The notes under the pieces are model-generated. The model searched no databases and was not told where the DNA came from. It saw nothing but the letters and a program-made list of their open reading frames with translations. The translations under genes were made by a program, and so were the position numbers. DNA of 35,841 nucleotides from Candidatus Poseidoniales archaeon (GTDB taxonomy: Archaea > Thermoplasmatota > Poseidoniia > Poseidoniales > Poseidoniaceae), in assembly GCA_012959275.1 (NCBI GenBank), contig DUDM01000008.1, forward strand, positions 1-35,841, written 5' to 3'. Below, piece after piece: positions 7,016-16,450 of the stretch. Every line of letters starts with the position of its first letter. Position 1 is the stretch's first letter.

Positions 7016-8236
7016 TCATAATTTATCGAAGATGCCCATCGGGCTATCCTCTTCTTCAACGCCATCGATTGAATCACTAAGCGTAATGCCTCCCACCATT
7101 GGCATTATTGCTGCTGCACCTACCGGTATGACATCTTCTAGTAAGCCGCTGATTATTCCTTTGCCGTCATCTTCAGTTAGAGGTTTTTCGACAACCGGTT
7201 CCACCTCTTCAATGACTTCTTCTTCGCCCTCTGGATTTTCCCAATCATCATGCTTGTCTAGTTTCATCCACTGAGGCAAGGAGCCAGAGCCTCCAGCCAA
7301 AACGCCAAATGTCGTGAATGCAGCCAATGGCATGACTGCAAGCGCAGTTAACAAGTCAAGGAATGAATTTTCTGGAATCGAGCCAATTCCCAACCAGTCC
7401 TCGAATATTGCTTTTTCAGCGGCGATGCTGACTGCTAGGTCAGGTCCAATCCATGTAACTACTACAATGCTGGCCAAGCGGCCGAGTAACCAAAGAACCA
7501 GAATTGGCGCCATCCATGAAAGCCGAGTCATCGAAATCAGCCAGCGTCGGGTGAAGGCAGCAATGGCGACGAAGCGCCGTGCATAGGCAGGAAAAACGCG
7601 CATTGCGATGGTAAGAACAAGAAGATAACAGACCAATGCCCATTCAAGTAAGCGATTATTATACATCCATTCAGTTGGCAAGATAAGCATCATCAGGAGT
7701 GGAACGACTACAAGGGTGAGTTGGAATGGAATTGCCAGCAAAACTAATCCTCCATGGATGGCGAGTAGACCATGCCCCTCTTCATAGCGGTCATGTACTA
7801 AGCGCATCATTTTGCCATGTGGAGATTTTCGATGTCTAATTCTAGTTTGTTCGGTCAATAGCGAAGAGCGCCCACCTCGAACTAACCCGAGTCCCCGAAG
7901 CCAGCCTCCGCGGTTGACTATCCACAGTGGACTAAACCCTCCAACAACTAAAGCCAAGGCCAATGCGATCATTCCATAAGCAATAGAGGCAGAAAGAATC
8001 CAAGGAATCATTTGAGATTCAAACTTTATTGAAAAGCCATCAGGACCCGATTGAAATGAGAAGAGATAGGTTATCGAAAAAGCTGCGATAGGCGTTATGA
8101 TGACTTGACCAATTGCTACACCAGTTAGCCAAAGACGAGCGATTATCGGACTTCGGGCCTCACTCATGAAAGCCGCTTGGTAAGTCCACCAACCAAATGA
8201 CTTGCCCTTGGAATACCTTTGGCGAGGAGCATTCAC
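7016..8236 (-). CDS. polytopic membrane protein with acidic cytoplasmic tail, function unknown
   Basis: The 406-residue protein shows about six hydrophobic segments between residues 35 and 320. A basic loop (RGLGLVRGGRSSLLTEQTRIRHRK, about 112-135) follows the second segment, and a 90-residue acidic tail rich in Glu follows the last. No family motif is recognised; the layout is reminiscent of YIP1-like integral membrane proteins, but I cannot support that name. A TATA-like GAAATAAAC on the minus strand 26-34 bases before the ATG (8262-8270) points to leaderless transcription, divergent from the surface protein gene. It is convergent with 6388-7014. Confidence 0.65.
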   Translation of the reverse strand: MNAPRQRYSKGKSFGWWTYQAAFMSEARSPIIARLWLTGVAIGQVIITPIAAFSITYLFSFQSGPDGFSIKFESQMIPWILSASIAYGMIALALALVVGGFSPLWIVNRGGWLRGLGLVRGGRSSLLTEQTRIRHRKSPHGKMMRLVHDRYEEGHGLLAIHGGLVLLAIPFQLTLVVVPLLMMLILPTEWMYNNRLLEWALVCYLLVLTIAMRVFPAYARRFVAIAAFTRRWLISMTRLSWMAPILVLWLLGRLASIVVVTWIGPDLAVSIAAEKAIFEDWLGIGSIPENSFLDLLTALAVMPLAAFTTFGVLAGGSGSLPQWMKLDKHDDWENPEGEEEVIEEVEPVVEKPLTEDDGKGIISGLLEDVIPVGAAAIMPMVGGITLSDSIDGVEEEDSPMGIFDKL

Positions 8237-8328
8237 GATGCTTTTCCTAATGCCGATTGAGGTTTATTTCCACCATACATTGACCGCGTATGCTTAAGGG
8301 GAGTTCTTGAGTGGGAGGGTTGATTGCG
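8237..8328. promoter_or_regulatory. divergent promoter region
   Basis: On the minus strand, GAAATAAAC (8262-8270) is a TATA-like box for the membrane protein gene. On the plus strand, TATGCTTAAG (8289-8298) lies about 31-40 bases before the ATG of the surface protein at 8329. Confidence 0.45.
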
Positions 8329-11300
8329 ATGCGTCAGCGTAACTATCCCGTCTTTTTCATCCTCACTGCAATGATGTTGCAGTTTTTCCTGCCCATCATG
8401 ACAATCGATGTAGATGCCTCCGATTCAGCAAGAGGTGGGACGAATGATGATTTCCACATCAAGTCGATAACTATCGGAAATCTTGGCTATTCTCCTGAAA
8501 TGTGGGTACAGTCAGACGGTAGCGTTGTTGAGTACGTGATGAAGGGGGATCTTGTGCCAATCGGAGTCACCGTCATGCGAAATGGTGGTGCTCTAAGTGG
8601 TGCATCTGCGGATGTCTTACTTGAGGCAGTCCACCCAATTGGCTTCGTCGCTTGGTCAAGTAATTGGTCAACTGGAGATGTTTACGGTGGTGGCGAAGAT
8701 AGTCACGAAGCAGTGTGGACTGCAGATACTGCCCATAGCATTCTCAATGGAAGCGAATTGCTGGGTGGCTATATCCTAAGGGCAACAGTCAATTATTTCG
8801 CAGATACCAAGAATGAAAATGATGTATTGAACCAAACTATTCCAGTTGCCTTTTCTTCTGATATCATGGACGGCTCCTTACTTTCAGGACAAAGGCATAC
8901 AATGGTGCCATTCCGCTATGAGCAAGGTGGAGCAGGGGATGCTGTTGCAGTTGGTTCATGGCAAGATGATGACACAAGCGCATATGTTGGTTCAGCCCAT
9001 TGGAGACACTCAAATCCTGGCTCAAATTATGGAGGAAATGCTTGGGACCGCCTAGTCTGGGGATATGCTCCTGCATCCAACGACTGTGGCAGTGCAATCC
9101 ATGAAGGTGGCGCTGGTGCCATCTATGGGATGTTCTATTGTAGGTTATTGATTCCTAGCCTTGACTTAGTTTCGGTGCAAATGCACGCAACGGCTTGGGG
9201 AGTTATTGGCAATGGAGATGATGTAGCACTTGAGTTATGGAGAAGCGGAGGAGTCTCTCTACGCCACAATTTATCAACAGCCTTGCCAATGGTGGCATCT
9301 GGCCAAGGCCAATGGACCAATCTATCATGGGACCCAACAGACCTATTAGGCGGGCATTCTTGGTTTGCAGGAATGCTTTTTACCAGTGACAACAGTATCG
9401 CAGAAGAAGGATATCACGTTGATGACTGGAGAGTTTTTGCAGTAGAAAAGATAGACCAATTCACTTTAGATGTAACTTGCGATAACCCAGTAGCAGGCTA
9501 TACTGCGGTGCCAAACGAAGTAATTAGTCTATATTGTGAAGTGACCAATAATGGCTACAAGCCGGCGATAATTAGAGTCAAGAGCAATATTTCAAACGAG
9601 ACTTGGATGGAGCCAACTAATCCTAAAATCAGAATTGATTCTTCTCACCCTACTCAACACGGAGTAGAAGTGCAATTACCAGCAACTGCAGCAGGTGCAA
9701 CTACTGAAATGTGGATAAACTTGTCAATTCCTGCCGGTGCAGATATTCAACAACAGACATGGAATGTTACGTGGTCGGATGGCAGTTCACAAGGCTTAGG
9801 AGTCTTGGCAAGCCTTCAAGCGACTGTTGGAGTAACCGAGCAATACAGCGTTGTATTATCCTCTTCAACACCATTACTTGCTGGCAACCTCGGCCCTGGA
9901 GAGACGGAAATTATTCCGATGCGCCTTCAAAATACCGGAAACCGTTTGGCGACATTCAACATGTTCGCATCTTTCAGTGTAGAAGGATGGACATCCGCAT
10001 TCACAGATATTGATGGAGACTTCTTCTTGCCAGTCACCTTAGATAGAGGGCAAATATTTGATTTCAATATCTCTATCACTTCTGCGGCTGATGCAGCACC
10101 AGATAACTATTCATTCTCAGTTAGAGCATTATGCACCACCTGCGGAGGGGTCGCTGTTTCAGGAAATGATGTTCTGATTAGAACCCTCGAAGTTCTACCA
10201 TTCAGAGAAGTTGAATTAATCGCAGAAAGTTTGGAAATTTCTGCCCCAGCAAATGGCATCCTACAAAGAATCGCCTTAGAAATTAATAATCTTGGAAATG
10301 ATGATGAGGTCTATGATTTGGTTTTGACTCAGTCAAATGCTCACCTCCTTGCAGATTTATCTGCTGATTCTACAGGAACTCTTGATGCTTGGGATGGTTT
10401 TACTGAAATCCACCTCGACCTGCCGATGCCGCTATACTTAGACTCCGGATTATACAGTGCCACTATTCGTATCGTTAACCAAGCTGATCCCTCAGTTTTT
10501 GATAGTGTCACCATATCGGTAACTGTACTCGATACCGCAGCAGTCGGTGTAAGTGCTGATGACCCTGAACAATCATACATTCCAGGCGGTGATTCCGATA
10601 CAATTCGCTTTGAAATCAGGAATGAGGGAAATGCTCCTGATAGTTTCGACCTCTCGACAGAGGGCGGCACCGGAATGAGCGCTGAGATAGAGGGCCTCTC
10701 CACTTTGCGGACCCCAACCATTGCCCCAGGCGCATCTTACAATATAACCGTCAGATTCTCCTTTGATGAGAGTGCGGAAGGGCAAGTCGGATTGGAAGTA
10801 TCTGCAACAAGTGTTCTAGACTCTGACATATCTACCACAGGAACGATTCTGTTTTCAGTTGGTTCACAAGATTGGTTGAGACTAATCGCTGTAGATGATT
10901 TGGTTATCGATGAGGCTGGGACATATGAGGTCGTTCTGACCTTGAGGAACCAATTTACAGGTGAACAAACAGTGTCCATTGATGTGCGCCAAGAATCCTC
11001 TTCAAGCATGTGGTATCGTGCAAGTTCAAGCAGTGAGGCTGCACCTTTGCGTATATTGGAACAAAAGGAACGCTTCATCACAGTTGAAATTGTAATCAGT
11101 GAGACTTCCTTGCTAAACCTCCAAGAAGATGAAATGCTAACAACCTTTGAAGTTTGGGCGATTTCAAATACCGTTGAAGATGCTACCAATGCAACTATCA
11201 GAGTAACCCTGATGAAAATCAATACTAAGGACAGCGACTCTGATACAGATTCTGTTAACAGTGGCTCTAAAGTTGCTGATTATGCTGTCTGGGTAATAGG

Positions 11301-11652
11301 CCCAATAATCGTGCTGGCTTTGCTTGGAATGTTATTCAAGGTAATTACCGCCACTGATGAAGAAGATGAAACTCCTTGGGCCAATGAAGAATATGAAAGT
11401 AGTCTTTCGGCTCAATATGGAGCCGTACCAGCCGCTCCTGATGTTCAACCAGCACCGGACATGAGTCAATTTGCTCCGCCATCTGTAGAAACCGCACCTG
11501 TTGTCCAAGCCGCTCCAATCGTAGAAGCGGCTCCAGTTATGGAAGTCTCGGATTCAGGCGTGCCTCCCGTACCAGCAGCAGGATTACCTGAAGGCTGGAG
11601 CATGGAACAGTGGACCCATTACGGGGCTGAATGGCTGAAGAAGAATGCATGA
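8329..11652 (+). CDS. large secreted, membrane-anchored surface protein with repeated CARDB/NEW3-like domains
   Basis: This 1107-residue protein has an N-terminal signal sequence (about 3-30). A jelly-roll-like region (about 200-380) includes a putative binding module with paired cysteines. At least three repeats then carry the CARDB/NEW3 beta-sandwich signature, for example VTNNGYKPAIIRV, LQNTGNRLATFNMF, INNLGNDDEVYDLVL and RNEGNAPDSFDLS. One membrane segment (about 1010-1032) precedes a Pro/Ala-rich cytoplasmic tail that ends in LPEGWSMEQWTHYGAEWLKK. The track start at 8311 is a GTG; the ATG at 8329 gives a better signal peptide. Likely roles are cell-surface binding of polymers or S-layer association. 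The Trp-rich C-terminal motif looks like a discrete docking element. Confidence 0.8.
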   Translation: MRQRNYPVFFILTAMMLQFFLPIMTIDVDASDSARGGTNDDFHIKSITIGNLGYSPEMWVQSDGSVVEYVMKGDLVPIGVTVMRNGGALSGASADVLLEAVHPIGFVAWSSNWSTGDVYGGGEDSHEAVWTADTAHSILNGSELLGGYILRATVNYFADTKNENDVLNQTIPVAFSSDIMDGSLLSGQRHTMVPFRYEQGGAGDAVAVGSWQDDDTSAYVGSAHWRHSNPGSNYGGNAWDRLVWGYAPASNDCGSAIHEGGAGAIYGMFYCRLLIPSLDLVSVQMHATAWGVIGNGDDVALELWRSGGVSLRHNLSTALPMVASGQGQWTNLSWDPTDLLGGHSWFAGMLFTSDNSIAEEGYHVDDWRVFAVEKIDQFTLDVTCDNPVAGYTAVPNEVISLYCEVTNNGYKPAIIRVKSNISNETWMEPTNPKIRIDSSHPTQHGVEVQLPATAAGATTEMWINLSIPAGADIQQQTWNVTWSDGSSQGLGVLASLQATVGVTEQYSVVLSSSTPLLAGNLGPGETEIIPMRLQNTGNRLATFNMFASFSVEGWTSAFTDIDGDFFLPVTLDRGQIFDFNISITSAADAAPDNYSFSVRALCTTCGGVAVSGNDVLIRTLEVLPFREVELIAESLEISAPANGILQRIALEINNLGNDDEVYDLVLTQSNAHLLADLSADSTGTLDAWDGFTEIHLDLPMPLYLDSGLYSATIRIVNQADPSVFDSVTISVTVLDTAAVGVSADDPEQSYIPGGDSDTIRFEIRNEGNAPDSFDLSTEGGTGMSAEIEGLSTLRTPTIAPGASYNITVRFSFDESAEGQVGLEVSATSVLDSDISTTGTILFSVGSQDWLRLIAVDDLVIDEAGTYEVVLTLRNQFTGEQTVSIDVRQESSSSMWYRASSSSEAAPLRILEQKERFITVEIVISETSLLNLQEDEMLTTFEVWAISNTVEDATNATIRVTLMKINTKDSDSDTDSVNSGSKVADYAVWVIGPIIVLALLGMLFKVITATDEEDETPWANEEYESSLSAQYGAVPAAPDVQPAPDMSQFAPPSVETAPVVQAAPIVEAAPVMEVSDSGVPPVPAAGLPEGWSMEQWTHYGAEWLKKNA

Positions 11653-13353: not shown

Positions 13354-13639
13354 GCATTAATATTTGTCAAACAGCAATAAAAAATCGGCAAATTTTGATG
13401 CGAACACAAGCGTGCGCTGAACACTAGAAAGTAATACGGCCGCGCACGCGAAGTGCGAACATTTGACGAATTAAACCTCAATCTACCGCAAATGTGAAAA
13501 TCAAACTTTGAATCATGCGCATTTGCACTTGATGTTCTATTATGTTGTCAAACGTTCAGTGATGATATGTTATCAAAAGTTAAAGACTTCATCCATCCCC
13601 CACACTTTGTCGATACCGTAGGTATCGTAGGTGTTTCCA
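13354..13639. other. intergenic region with inverted repeats before the redox cassette
   Basis: No gene is supported in these 286 bases. They hold GC-rich alternating sequence (CGGCCGCGCACGCG), a GCAAATG/CATTTGC pair (about 13490-13535), AT-rich stretches that could hold a TATA box (TCTATTATG, TGATATGTTATC), and a 17-base palindrome CGATACCGTAGGTATCG (13611-13627) just before the next ATG. The CGTAGGT half is repeated immediately after. The palindrome is a candidate operator or leader hairpin for the ferredoxin fusion gene. Confidence 0.5.
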
Positions 13640-15586
13640 ATGTCTCAAATCTTATCCGTCTGGATTGAGGAGGGTTGTATCACCTGTGATGCTTGTCAGG
13701 AAACTTGTCCTGAAGTGTTCAGTGTCACCGACGATACCTGCTTCATTATCGCAGATGTGCGCACTGACGGAAAGTTTGATCAGAACGAGGGTCAGGCTAC
13801 TATCAAGGTAGAAATCGGCACTGAATTAGCCGACGATATCGTAGATGCCGCAGAAGGTTGTCCTGTTGAAGTCATCAAATTTACCACTGGAGAATCAACC
13901 GATGCTCCAGTTGAAGAAGCAGCCCCCGCAGTGGAAGTTGTCGCAGAAGAAGTCGAAGAAAAAGATGATTCAGCGATTGAAATCCCCGCATCCTTGCTGG
14001 AGGGCAACCGCGATTTGATGATTCTATTCGGCTCACAGAGTGGTAATTGTGAAGACTTGGCAGCAACCACTGCCAAGATTGCAGAACAGGTGTCCCTGAA
14101 TGCAACTGTCGTTGACATGGCGGAAGCTGACCTAGCAACGATTGCTTCCCAAAAGCGTGTAATGATTATTTGTTCAACATGGGGTGAAGGAGAGATGCCC
14201 GATAATGCTCAGGCATTATGGGATGCAGCCATTGGAGCAGGGGCGCCCTCTTTTTCAGGAGTCAATTTCAATGTCTGTGCCTTGGGTGATACGTCTTACG
14301 ACCAATACTGTGAATCCGGAAAAAATTGGGATGATCAATTTGAGGCGATGGGGGCAAGCAGAGTTGCAACACGTGTGGACTGCGATGTCGATTATGAACC
14401 GGCTTGGAAACTTTGGCTCCCTGAAGCCCTTGGTGCATTGGCGAGCATAGATTCCTCCGGCACAATGCAGCAGGAATATGTCAGTGCATTCATCGAGATT
14501 CTCTCACCAAAGAAGAAGTCAGCCGGTGCTGTCGCAGCCAGTGGTATCGAGCAACCCGATATCGAAGTTAGCCTGAGTATCTTCAGGTATAACCCATTGA
14601 TGGCAGAAAGTGGCCGTGATACCTATGATGTCACCGTCCCAGGTCATGCTAGTCTGCAAGATGTACTTGTTATGCTCAAGGAAACTCAAGATGGAAGCCT
14701 GACCTTCCGCACCAGCAGTGGAGCAGGAAGCAACCCACTGTGCGGATTATCGGTCAACGGAAATCTCGTATTAGCAGATTGTGTTAGAATGATTGACTTG
14801 ATGGCAGGAGCAGGGGAGCCAGCCAAAATACGTATTGAACCATTGCCAGGTCACCAAATCCTGAAGGATCTCTATGTCAGCACCAAGGCACTAGATGTAT
14901 CCAGAGAGCGAGCAAAGCCATGGTTGAGAACTATAGATCGGGTTGGAGCAAATACCCCTCAGGGCACCGTTATTGGTGTCATGTCGAGTACCAAGGCAAC
15001 TGCTTTACACGCCATGAATGACCTTGTTAGCGACCATCTTCTACATTCATTATCTGAGACTGTGCCACACAATCCATCTTACTTAGGGCCAGCAGTTCTG
15101 AACAGGCTTTGGGTGAAGGTGAACGACCCTCGTATCTCAAAAGACTGCAAAGAAGAGATGAGAGAAATTTTGCAAGGTACAGATGGAGTATGGGCCGAAA
15201 GCGACCTTGGCGTCATGGCAAGATTCGGACGTATGGGTCAGCGAGCCTCTCAGAATTACAATGATTGCCGCAGTGAATTATTGCGAGCCCATCGTTTCGC
15301 CGGTAAATCAGGACGCCATGTCAAGTGGTTCTGCAAGACCGTCAAGTCTTCTGGCACCCTCAACGAAACTATTCTTGCAGCTCAAACAATGGGTCCAATT
15401 GGAGCCATAGCCAACTTGCCTGCAACTCTCCGCATGGCATTAGGATTCACTCGTACGGGTGGACCAATGGTTCGCGACCTTCAGGGCTGGATAGCACCTG
15501 GGAAGATGCCTCCAATAATCAACAAGAGCGTTCATGACCATCATGAAGTCGTAGCCTTGTTCAATGAGTTTGACAAGAGGTTCTGA
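13640..15586 (+). CDS. ferredoxin / CysJ-like flavodoxin / degenerate SdhB-HdrC-like fusion protein
   Basis: The 648-residue protein has four parts. Residues 1-82 are a one-cluster [4Fe-4S] ferredoxin (C13, C16, C19, C23P and partner C74P). An acidic Ala/Glu linker spans about 84-115. An FMN flavodoxin domain (about 125-265) is of the CysJ/P450-reductase kind: GSQSGNCEDLA for the phosphate loop, STWGEGEMPDNA and ALGDTSYDQYCESGK. The rest (about 307-648) resembles the iron-sulfur subunit of succinate dehydrogenase or HdrC, with the fold motifs SIFRYNP and LTFRTSS...LCGLSVNG...ADC. However, two of the four [2Fe-2S] cysteines and all CxxCxxCxxxCP motifs are missing. The ATG at 13640 is preferred over the GTG at 13631. 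It is coupled by TGAGGTG to an HdrB-like partner. An electron-transfer role is likely; substrates are unknown. Confidence 0.8.
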   Translation: MSQILSVWIEEGCITCDACQETCPEVFSVTDDTCFIIADVRTDGKFDQNEGQATIKVEIGTELADDIVDAAEGCPVEVIKFTTGESTDAPVEEAAPAVEVVAEEVEEKDDSAIEIPASLLEGNRDLMILFGSQSGNCEDLAATTAKIAEQVSLNATVVDMAEADLATIASQKRVMIICSTWGEGEMPDNAQALWDAAIGAGAPSFSGVNFNVCALGDTSYDQYCESGKNWDDQFEAMGASRVATRVDCDVDYEPAWKLWLPEALGALASIDSSGTMQQEYVSAFIEILSPKKKSAGAVAASGIEQPDIEVSLSIFRYNPLMAESGRDTYDVTVPGHASLQDVLVMLKETQDGSLTFRTSSGAGSNPLCGLSVNGNLVLADCVRMIDLMAGAGEPAKIRIEPLPGHQILKDLYVSTKALDVSRERAKPWLRTIDRVGANTPQGTVIGVMSSTKATALHAMNDLVSDHLLHSLSETVPHNPSYLGPAVLNRLWVKVNDPRISKDCKEEMREILQGTDGVWAESDLGVMARFGRMGQRASQNYNDCRSELLRAHRFAGKSGRHVKWFCKTVKSSGTLNETILAAQTMGPIGAIANLPATLRMALGFTRTGGPMVRDLQGWIAPGKMPPIINKSVHDHHEVVALFNEFDKRF

Positions 15587-15595
15587 GGTGAAAAA

Positions 15596-16450
15596 ATGAA
15601 GTTCGCATATTTCCCCGGCTGTGTCGCAAAAGGCAGTTCAAGAGAAGTTGAAGATGCCATGCGTTGCGTTGTCAAGGCGGTTGGAATCGACCTTATCGAC
15701 ATGCCTGGAGCGGCATGTTGTGGGGCTGGTGTCATGAAGCAAGGCAATCATCGCTTGCAATTAGCAATCAATGCCCGCACTTTTGCCATGGCAGAAGAAC
15801 AAGGAATGGACGTCCTAACTCCTTGTGCAACTTGTCAAGGAAATATGTATGAAGACCTAACCTTACTTTTGGAAGATGAACCCCTGCGTTCAGAAATTAA
15901 TGAAGTCTTAGAGCGAACCTGTGGAATGAGGTTCGAAGGCAACTTGCGAATGCGCCACTTACTCGATGTATTAGTCGAAGATATCGGCCTCGATGTTGTT
16001 GCAAGCAAGGTGGTTAACCCAGTGGATTTCCCAATCGCTGGATATTATGGCTCACCGATGCTCCGTGCTTCGGCAAATGGAGATGACGACCCACATAATC
16101 CAGTTTATTTTGAAGACCTAATTCGTGCATTGGGAGGAGATGCGGTAGATTATGATGGACGTACTGCAAGCGTTGGATTCCCGGGTTTACTTTCACAAGA
16201 AAAAACTGCTATGAAGATGACTGCTTCGGTATTATCAGAAGCCAAGCAAGAAGGGGCTCGAATTATGGCAACTGCCTGTCCTCTGGCTCATTTCAATCTC
16301 GATGTCTATCAAGTAAAGGCTGGAAAAACCACAGGAAAAGATACCAGTATGCCAGTAATTCATCTGCCAGAATTGGTCGCTTATGCATTGGGATATAATG
16401 TTGACAGATATGCACAACTGCGCACTCGCATCCTTGTTATTGGTGATTGA
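15596..16450 (+). CDS. HdrB/SdhE-like CCG-domain protein with a lost second cluster motif
   Basis: The 284-residue protein belongs to the cysteine-rich CCG family (heterodisulfide reductase subunit B, SdhE, GlcF). The first motif is complete: C9 (YFPGC), C41C42G and C77xxC80. In the second half the expected YYGC reads YYGS153, the CCGFP motif reads SVGFP (192-196), and the final CPxC keeps only C228 (CPLA). In SdhE/HdrB-type proteins the C-terminal motif holds an unusual [4Fe-4S] cluster, so that cluster should be absent here. The start has a Shine-Dalgarno fused to the upstream TGA (TGAGGTGAAAAAATG). The two cassette proteins therefore probably form a complex in the way SdhB-SdhE do. The 3' end overlaps the convergent nuclease gene by 14 bases. 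Confidence 0.82.
   Translation: MKFAYFPGCVAKGSSREVEDAMRCVVKAVGIDLIDMPGAACCGAGVMKQGNHRLQLAINARTFAMAEEQGMDVLTPCATCQGNMYEDLTLLLEDEPLRSEINEVLERTCGMRFEGNLRMRHLLDVLVEDIGLDVVASKVVNPVDFPIAGYYGSPMLRASANGDDDPHNPVYFEDLIRALGGDAVDYDGRTASVGFPGLLSQEKTAMKMTASVLSEAKQEGARIMATACPLAHFNLDVYQVKAGKTTGKDTSMPVIHLPELVAYALGYNVDRYAQLRTRILVIGD

Follow-up and report, generated by a model that had tools for sequence, protein, structure and literature searches.

The window, i.e., the whole stretch of 35,841 nucleotides analysed here (contig G000:C8 of the Candidatus Poseidoniales genome G000), carries two consecutive genes on the forward strand, P1 and then P2. Their products retain the folds of SdhB and HdrB and have lost the iron-sulfur wire built into these folds, and P1 has intact low-potential electron carriers fused in front. 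The pair is conserved and under selection, and the C-terminal tail of P1 is inherited together with P2. We consider it highly probable that this cassette is a repurposed electron-delivery scaffold. HdrB and SdhB are textbook cluster-holding proteins, and a conserved, selected, single-copy pair in which both folds lack clusters shows that the scaffold is useful in itself. The pair also belongs to the core genes of an archaeal group that ranks among the most abundant in the sea. A preliminary description of the window had suggested that an SdhB/HdrB-type pair was repurposed, with electrons entering through ferredoxin/flavodoxin; this was largely supported, with a separate intact SdhB found in the same genome.

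Gene layout and electron carriers

The start of P1 is likely the ATG at 13640, the GTG upstream at 13631 being a mechanical ORF start, and P2 starts nine bases past the P1 stop. The cassette comprises the following features:

13640..15586, forward strand: P1 gene, 648 aa; SdhB fold without clusters, preceded by ferredoxin and flavodoxin and followed by the tail
13667..13879, forward strand: ferredoxin domain (Fer4_13), from Pfam; CxxCxxC...C ligands retained
14021..14392, forward strand: CysJ-type flavodoxin (FMN) domain, from Pfam and NCBIfam
14573..15325, forward strand: SdhB-like fold (Fer2_3 half and helical half) without a complete Fe-S site, from Pfam, profile and predicted fold
15326..15583, forward strand: P1 C-terminal tail of form A type, co-inherited with P2
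15596..16450, forward strand: P2 gene, 284 aa; form A, with an HdrB/SdhE fold in which the first CCG quintet is retained and the second lost
15824..15826, forward strand: C77 codon of P2; C77 occurs in 106 of 107 distinct P2 sequences
16277..16279, forward strand: C228 codon of P2, the sole surviving second-cluster cysteine (107/107 distinct P2 sequences)

Pfam searches identified Fer4_13 (E = 2.6e-7), Flavodoxin_1 (1.3e-29) and Fer2_3 (5.8e-11) in P1 and CCG (3e-19) in P2. Among the NCBIfam models, cysJ matched the middle of P1 and SdhB-type models covered residues ~310–590, below the curated cut-offs. HdrB/SdhE models spanned almost the whole of P2, also under their cut-offs (TIGR03288 scored 179 bits against 345, and NF042965 160 against 500). 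The fusion of a ferredoxin, a CysJ-type FMN domain and an SdhB-like part, previously read from the sequence, was thus recovered by domain searches, as was the CCG domain of its partner.

P1 has both marks of a single-cluster ferredoxin, the Fer4_13 match and the CxxCxxC...C ligands, and the CxxCxxC pattern was whole in 69/69 ferredoxin-bearing relatives. Flavodoxin_1 scored 103.7 bits against a cut-off of 25, and P1 relatives contain an FMN phosphate loop of the GSQ[ST]GN type; FMN binding is predicted. This domain was the only Flavodoxin_1 match in the window genome, which is 77% complete.

Retained folds and lost cluster ligands

The C-terminal part of P1 is predicted to form an SdhB fold, with a plant-type ferredoxin domain and a helical domain. 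A family profile of 43 relatives matched SdhB proteins of E. coli, mitochondria and others (E = 3e-38, positions 6–244), and the AlphaFold model of this part (pLDDT 79) matched SdhB/FrdB structures across ~250 residues at E ~1e-14, the SdhB-normalised TM-score being ~0.8. P2 was likewise predicted to have the structure of HdrB (pLDDT 92, TM 0.9), and its profile matched HdrB over the whole length (3e-71). Structure prediction for the single proteins therefore agreed with the assignments made earlier, and the possibility that the C-terminal part of P1 is not SdhB-like fell away, since profile and fold both match SdhB.

The closest intact relatives were SdhB-SdhE pairs of family f6 in the same phylum, in which the cluster cysteines are whole in both proteins. 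Identity to these pairs was ~40% for P2 and ~21% for the P1 part; as the alignment runs end to end, ligand columns could be read one by one. No conserved Fe-S cysteine was found in the SdhB-like part across 29 full P1 sequences and the Poseidoniales rows of the relatives' alignment, and none of the sampled Poseidoniales members had a complete cluster site there. The ligand losses described previously were confirmed with minor corrections. Both CxxCxxCxxxCP motifs are absent from the window P1; its four [2Fe-2S] ligand columns read S, N, C and D, and the lone aligned cysteine is present in just 3 of the 29 relatives. The losses in the SdhB-like part, initially noticed in the window copy, are present there but common to all sampled Poseidoniales. 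No sdhA-like gene was found among the conserved neighbours of the cassette. A second, intact SdhB is located elsewhere in the window genome (G000:C10, with a ~490-aa frame immediately upstream), in agreement with the canonical complex II reported for MGII (PMC6336850).

In the window P2, the first quintet is complete (C9, C41, C42, C77 and C80) and C228 alone is left of the second, with S at 153, S at 192, V at 193 and A at 231, as the preliminary description had it. Four of the five second-cluster ligands were lost in all 107 distinct P2 sequences. The first site divides these sequences into form A, with C9, C41 and C80 present (22/107, including the window), and form B, with all three gone (85/107). 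The degeneracy reported for P2 held for the second cluster, but the P2 of the window is the less degraded of the two forms, and most of the order lacks the first cluster too.

C77 (106/107) and C228 (107/107) persisted despite the other ligand losses. Position 42 of form B holds D in 68 of 85 sequences, and C42 survives in the other 17. Lost ligands were replaced by fixed residues, N9 in 85/85 form B sequences and S192 in 107/107 P2 sequences, and H121, H232 and D164 were invariant among the 107. With these fixed replacements and invariant residues, the pattern looks like a selected site and not drift. The only P2 with Ser in place of C77 came from genome G199 (L051/L091) of the window's genus and retained C9, C41, C42 and C80.

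The N-terminal carrier set differed between genera. All 16 form A proteins had a ferredoxin followed by a flavodoxin, and form B was found with ferredoxin-flavodoxin (52), two flavodoxins (23), flavodoxin alone (2) or ferredoxin alone (1). Flavodoxin is missing from one variant and ferredoxin from a few, so that the complex has no absolute need of either carrier. The P1 of G019 (L084) is 471 aa long, with only a ferredoxin before the SdhB-like part and no flavodoxin; in G062 (L086), a 555-aa frame has only one flavodoxin in this position. According to the ligands, five clusters are expected in the intact SdhB-SdhE pairs, two in form A, one in form B with a ferredoxin and none in form B with two flavodoxins, a combination in which zero recognisable iron sites remain. 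With members that hold two cluster sites, one or none, the cassette offers a natural series for probing the role of each cluster.

Distribution, selection and joint inheritance

Among 293 genomes of Poseidoniales (Marine Group II, archaea of the surface ocean), 258 contained P1 and 256 contained P2, most of the genomes surveyed being metagenome assemblies; each protein was present in 35/35 high-quality Poseidoniales genomes. Named records with the cassette belonged to Marine Group II / Candidatus Poseidoniales, and the genomes sampled outside the order yielded nothing beyond remote relatives of SdhB and HdrB. The open-access literature searched contained no description of the cassette. One record titled Deltaproteobacteria bacterium AH-558-G13 (L114, JAOMAZ010000036.1) showed 97% identity to the window P1 domain and is probably mislabelled or contaminated.

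Gene order was the same in 25/25 compared loci, which span 21 genera and are skewed toward the nearest family: an upstream gene, the cassette, an opposite-strand gene pair downstream, and then the ribosomal L3 gene. Judging by sequence, the upstream gene encodes a putative thermosome, and the pair on the opposite strand a putative Hef-type helicase and nuclease. The window also encodes two proteins without a Pfam match, one of 1113 aa (8311–11649, forward strand; family in 22/25 compared loci) and one of 406 aa (7019–8236, reverse strand; family in 20/25).

The cassette is under strong purifying selection (dN/dS 0.03–0.06): for form A, one pair gave 0.056 (P1 part) and 0.027 (P2), and for form B, one pair gave 0.058 and 0.033, respectively. 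The many ligand residues lost in comparison with SdhB and HdrB might suggest a decaying pair or an assembly artefact, an explanation whose probability is practically nil. Both genes recur across independent assemblies in the numbers given above, and low dN/dS, universality in the order and fixed synteny rule it out. Close homologues have lost the cysteines as well, and the coordinated losses in two partners with open frames, pointed out in the preliminary description, thus proved to be a property of a universal, syntenic and selected pair.

In the P2 tree, all form B sequences fell into a single clade (100/99) that extends across both families of the order and conflicts with the species order obtained from neighbouring genes. 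The tree of the SdhB-like part of P1 taken whole follows the species, and the last ~90–95 residues of P1 group with P2 instead (94/98). Tail and P2 agreed in form in 94/94 distinct pairs (21 A-A, 73 B-B, 0 mixed). Genome G112 (L073, genus g6) was found to be a recombinant, in which a block begins at about P1 residue 560 and runs to the end of P2; the block is ~80–95% like genus g4 and mostly 40–60% like its own genus g6, and the neighbouring genes group with g6. G211 (L074, genus g6) clusters with G112. We interpret both as natural homologous replacement of the P1 tail and P2 from a genus-g4-like donor within a g6 neighbourhood. Because the P1 tail and P2 are contiguous, their co-inheritance may partly reflect DNA linkage. 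Nevertheless, the recombination junction falls within P1, and AlphaFold confidence was low for the tail modelled alone; both observations point to the tail as a probable interface with P2. In G005 (L082), P1 and P2 form one 997-aa frame in which the last P1 residues are absent; the fusion is either natural or the product of faulty assembly.

Proposed function and relation to known systems

The chances are about even that the cassette forms an electron-delivery complex specific to Poseidoniales, in which tethered carriers feed P2 and whose ancestor was the SdhB-SdhE pair of a class-E succinate dehydrogenase (SDH)/heterodisulfide-reductase-like enzyme. In such a complex, P1 would bind P2 via its tail, the carriers would swing on the acidic, alanine-rich linkers of P1, and electrons would pass from them straight to the pocket between the P2 halves, replacing the lost wire. 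The working centre in this pocket would consist of the near-invariant C77 and C228, acting in form B as a thiol/disulfide pair. In form A, the first CCG cluster would lie beside C228, in principle by analogy with ferredoxin:thioredoxin reductase. The centre could then reduce a disulfide or another substrate. A thiol-centre step at C77/C228, suggested by residue conservation, is less likely than not. The Ser in place of C77 in G199, the variants that do without one of the carriers, and the possible DNA linkage of tail and P2 count against this model.

The ladder of five, two, one and no clusters suggests that iron sparing may have been the driver. Tentatively, and on balance doubtfully, a five-cluster enzyme would have been converted stepwise into an iron-free one, with two tethered flavodoxins and a cluster-free HdrB pocket built around a two-cysteine centre. 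This would be an iron-saving route to new chemistry in the HdrB fold, with A and B modules still swapping between genera. If the iron-saving reading is true, the cassette clearly exemplifies how flavins can take over from iron-sulfur wiring within a single complex.

The main rival to electron delivery into P2 is a pseudo-enzyme: the SdhB/HdrB-like part would be a docking platform, and the ferredoxin and flavodoxin would serve as the cell's general low-potential reductant for docked enzymes, e.g., radical-SAM enzymes. The only flavodoxin domain found in the window genome sits in the cassette, the carrier modules are interchangeable on a constant scaffold, and the neighbourhood is a housekeeping one adjoining the ribosomal L3 operon, all of which would suit a platform. 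However, the two cysteines, three histidines and fixed replacements conserved in the old pocket across 107 P2 sequences exceed what a platform needs, and G019 has no flavodoxin altogether; we regard this explanation as unlikely, if a serious one. The same pocket residues could instead bind a metal in form B through new ligands (N9, D42 or C42, C77, C228, H121 and H232), making P2 a new metal enzyme and not a thiol enzyme. The conservation of N9 (85/85) and D42 (68/85) in form B, together with near-invariant C77, C228, H121 and H232, is consistent with such a site. Nevertheless, the latter four are equally conserved in form A, where the old quintet persists, and so are not markers of a form B-specific site, which leaves the metal-site proposal improbable.

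That P2 has turned into an isomerase with two catalytic cysteines, like the Asp/Glu racemases, is more improbable still. A few P2 members matched Pfam Asp_Glu_race locally (best E = 8e-6), and racemases ranked after HdrB in the Foldseek search with P2. The hhalign probability was 12%, for one half only and as a rough figure, with one racemase row (L198) in the wrong frame; the TM-score against P2 was 0.34, and a redox partner would be superfluous for an isomerase. An HdrB homologue from another family also weakly matched Asp_Glu_race; given this match and the hhalign value, a racemase-like P2 was not supported.

Among known systems, the cassette resembles the class-E SdhB-SdhE pair, represented by the intact f6 pair, in gene order, folds and end-to-end alignment. 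It differs in lacking every SdhB cluster site and one or both SdhE sites, in the ferredoxin/flavodoxin fused to SdhB, and in having no adjacent SdhA. The Wolinella SdhABE enzyme is a class-E succinate dehydrogenase / 8-methylmenaquinol:fumarate reductase (PMC2680327). The cassette uses the class-E SDH/HdrB skeleton but is not a member of this class, as the defining cluster sites are missing. P2 shares its whole-length fold with HdrB of heterodisulfide reductase (5ODC, 8RVY; fold and profile scores as above); unlike HdrB, its second non-cubane cluster site is gone in all sequences and its first in most. Unlike heterodisulfide reductase, the cassette has no HdrA, and the SdhB-like part stands in the place of HdrC.

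The same two modules are joined in TfrB, subunit B of thiol:fumarate reductase, an SdhB-HdrB fusion whose model (NCBIfam PRK06259) weakly matched both P1 and P2. A full set of clusters is expected in TfrB, whereas in the cassette clusters have been lost and carriers added. The match of the middle P1 domain to cysJ covers positions 58–208 of the model (5e-36); in contrast to CysJ, no FAD/NADPH reductase domain follows the flavodoxin, and a ferredoxin or a second flavodoxin precedes it. The Helicobacter pylori protein of PDB entry 3KWL (514 aa), listed in its paper only as a protein of unknown function, matched by fold both the SdhB-like part of P1 (7e-6) and P2 (7e-10). Unlike the cassette, it is a single chain in which no flavodoxin or ferredoxin match was seen. 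Judging by its fold matches, 3KWL appears to be a single-chain SdhB and HdrB fold and may represent a parallel, cluster-poor case.
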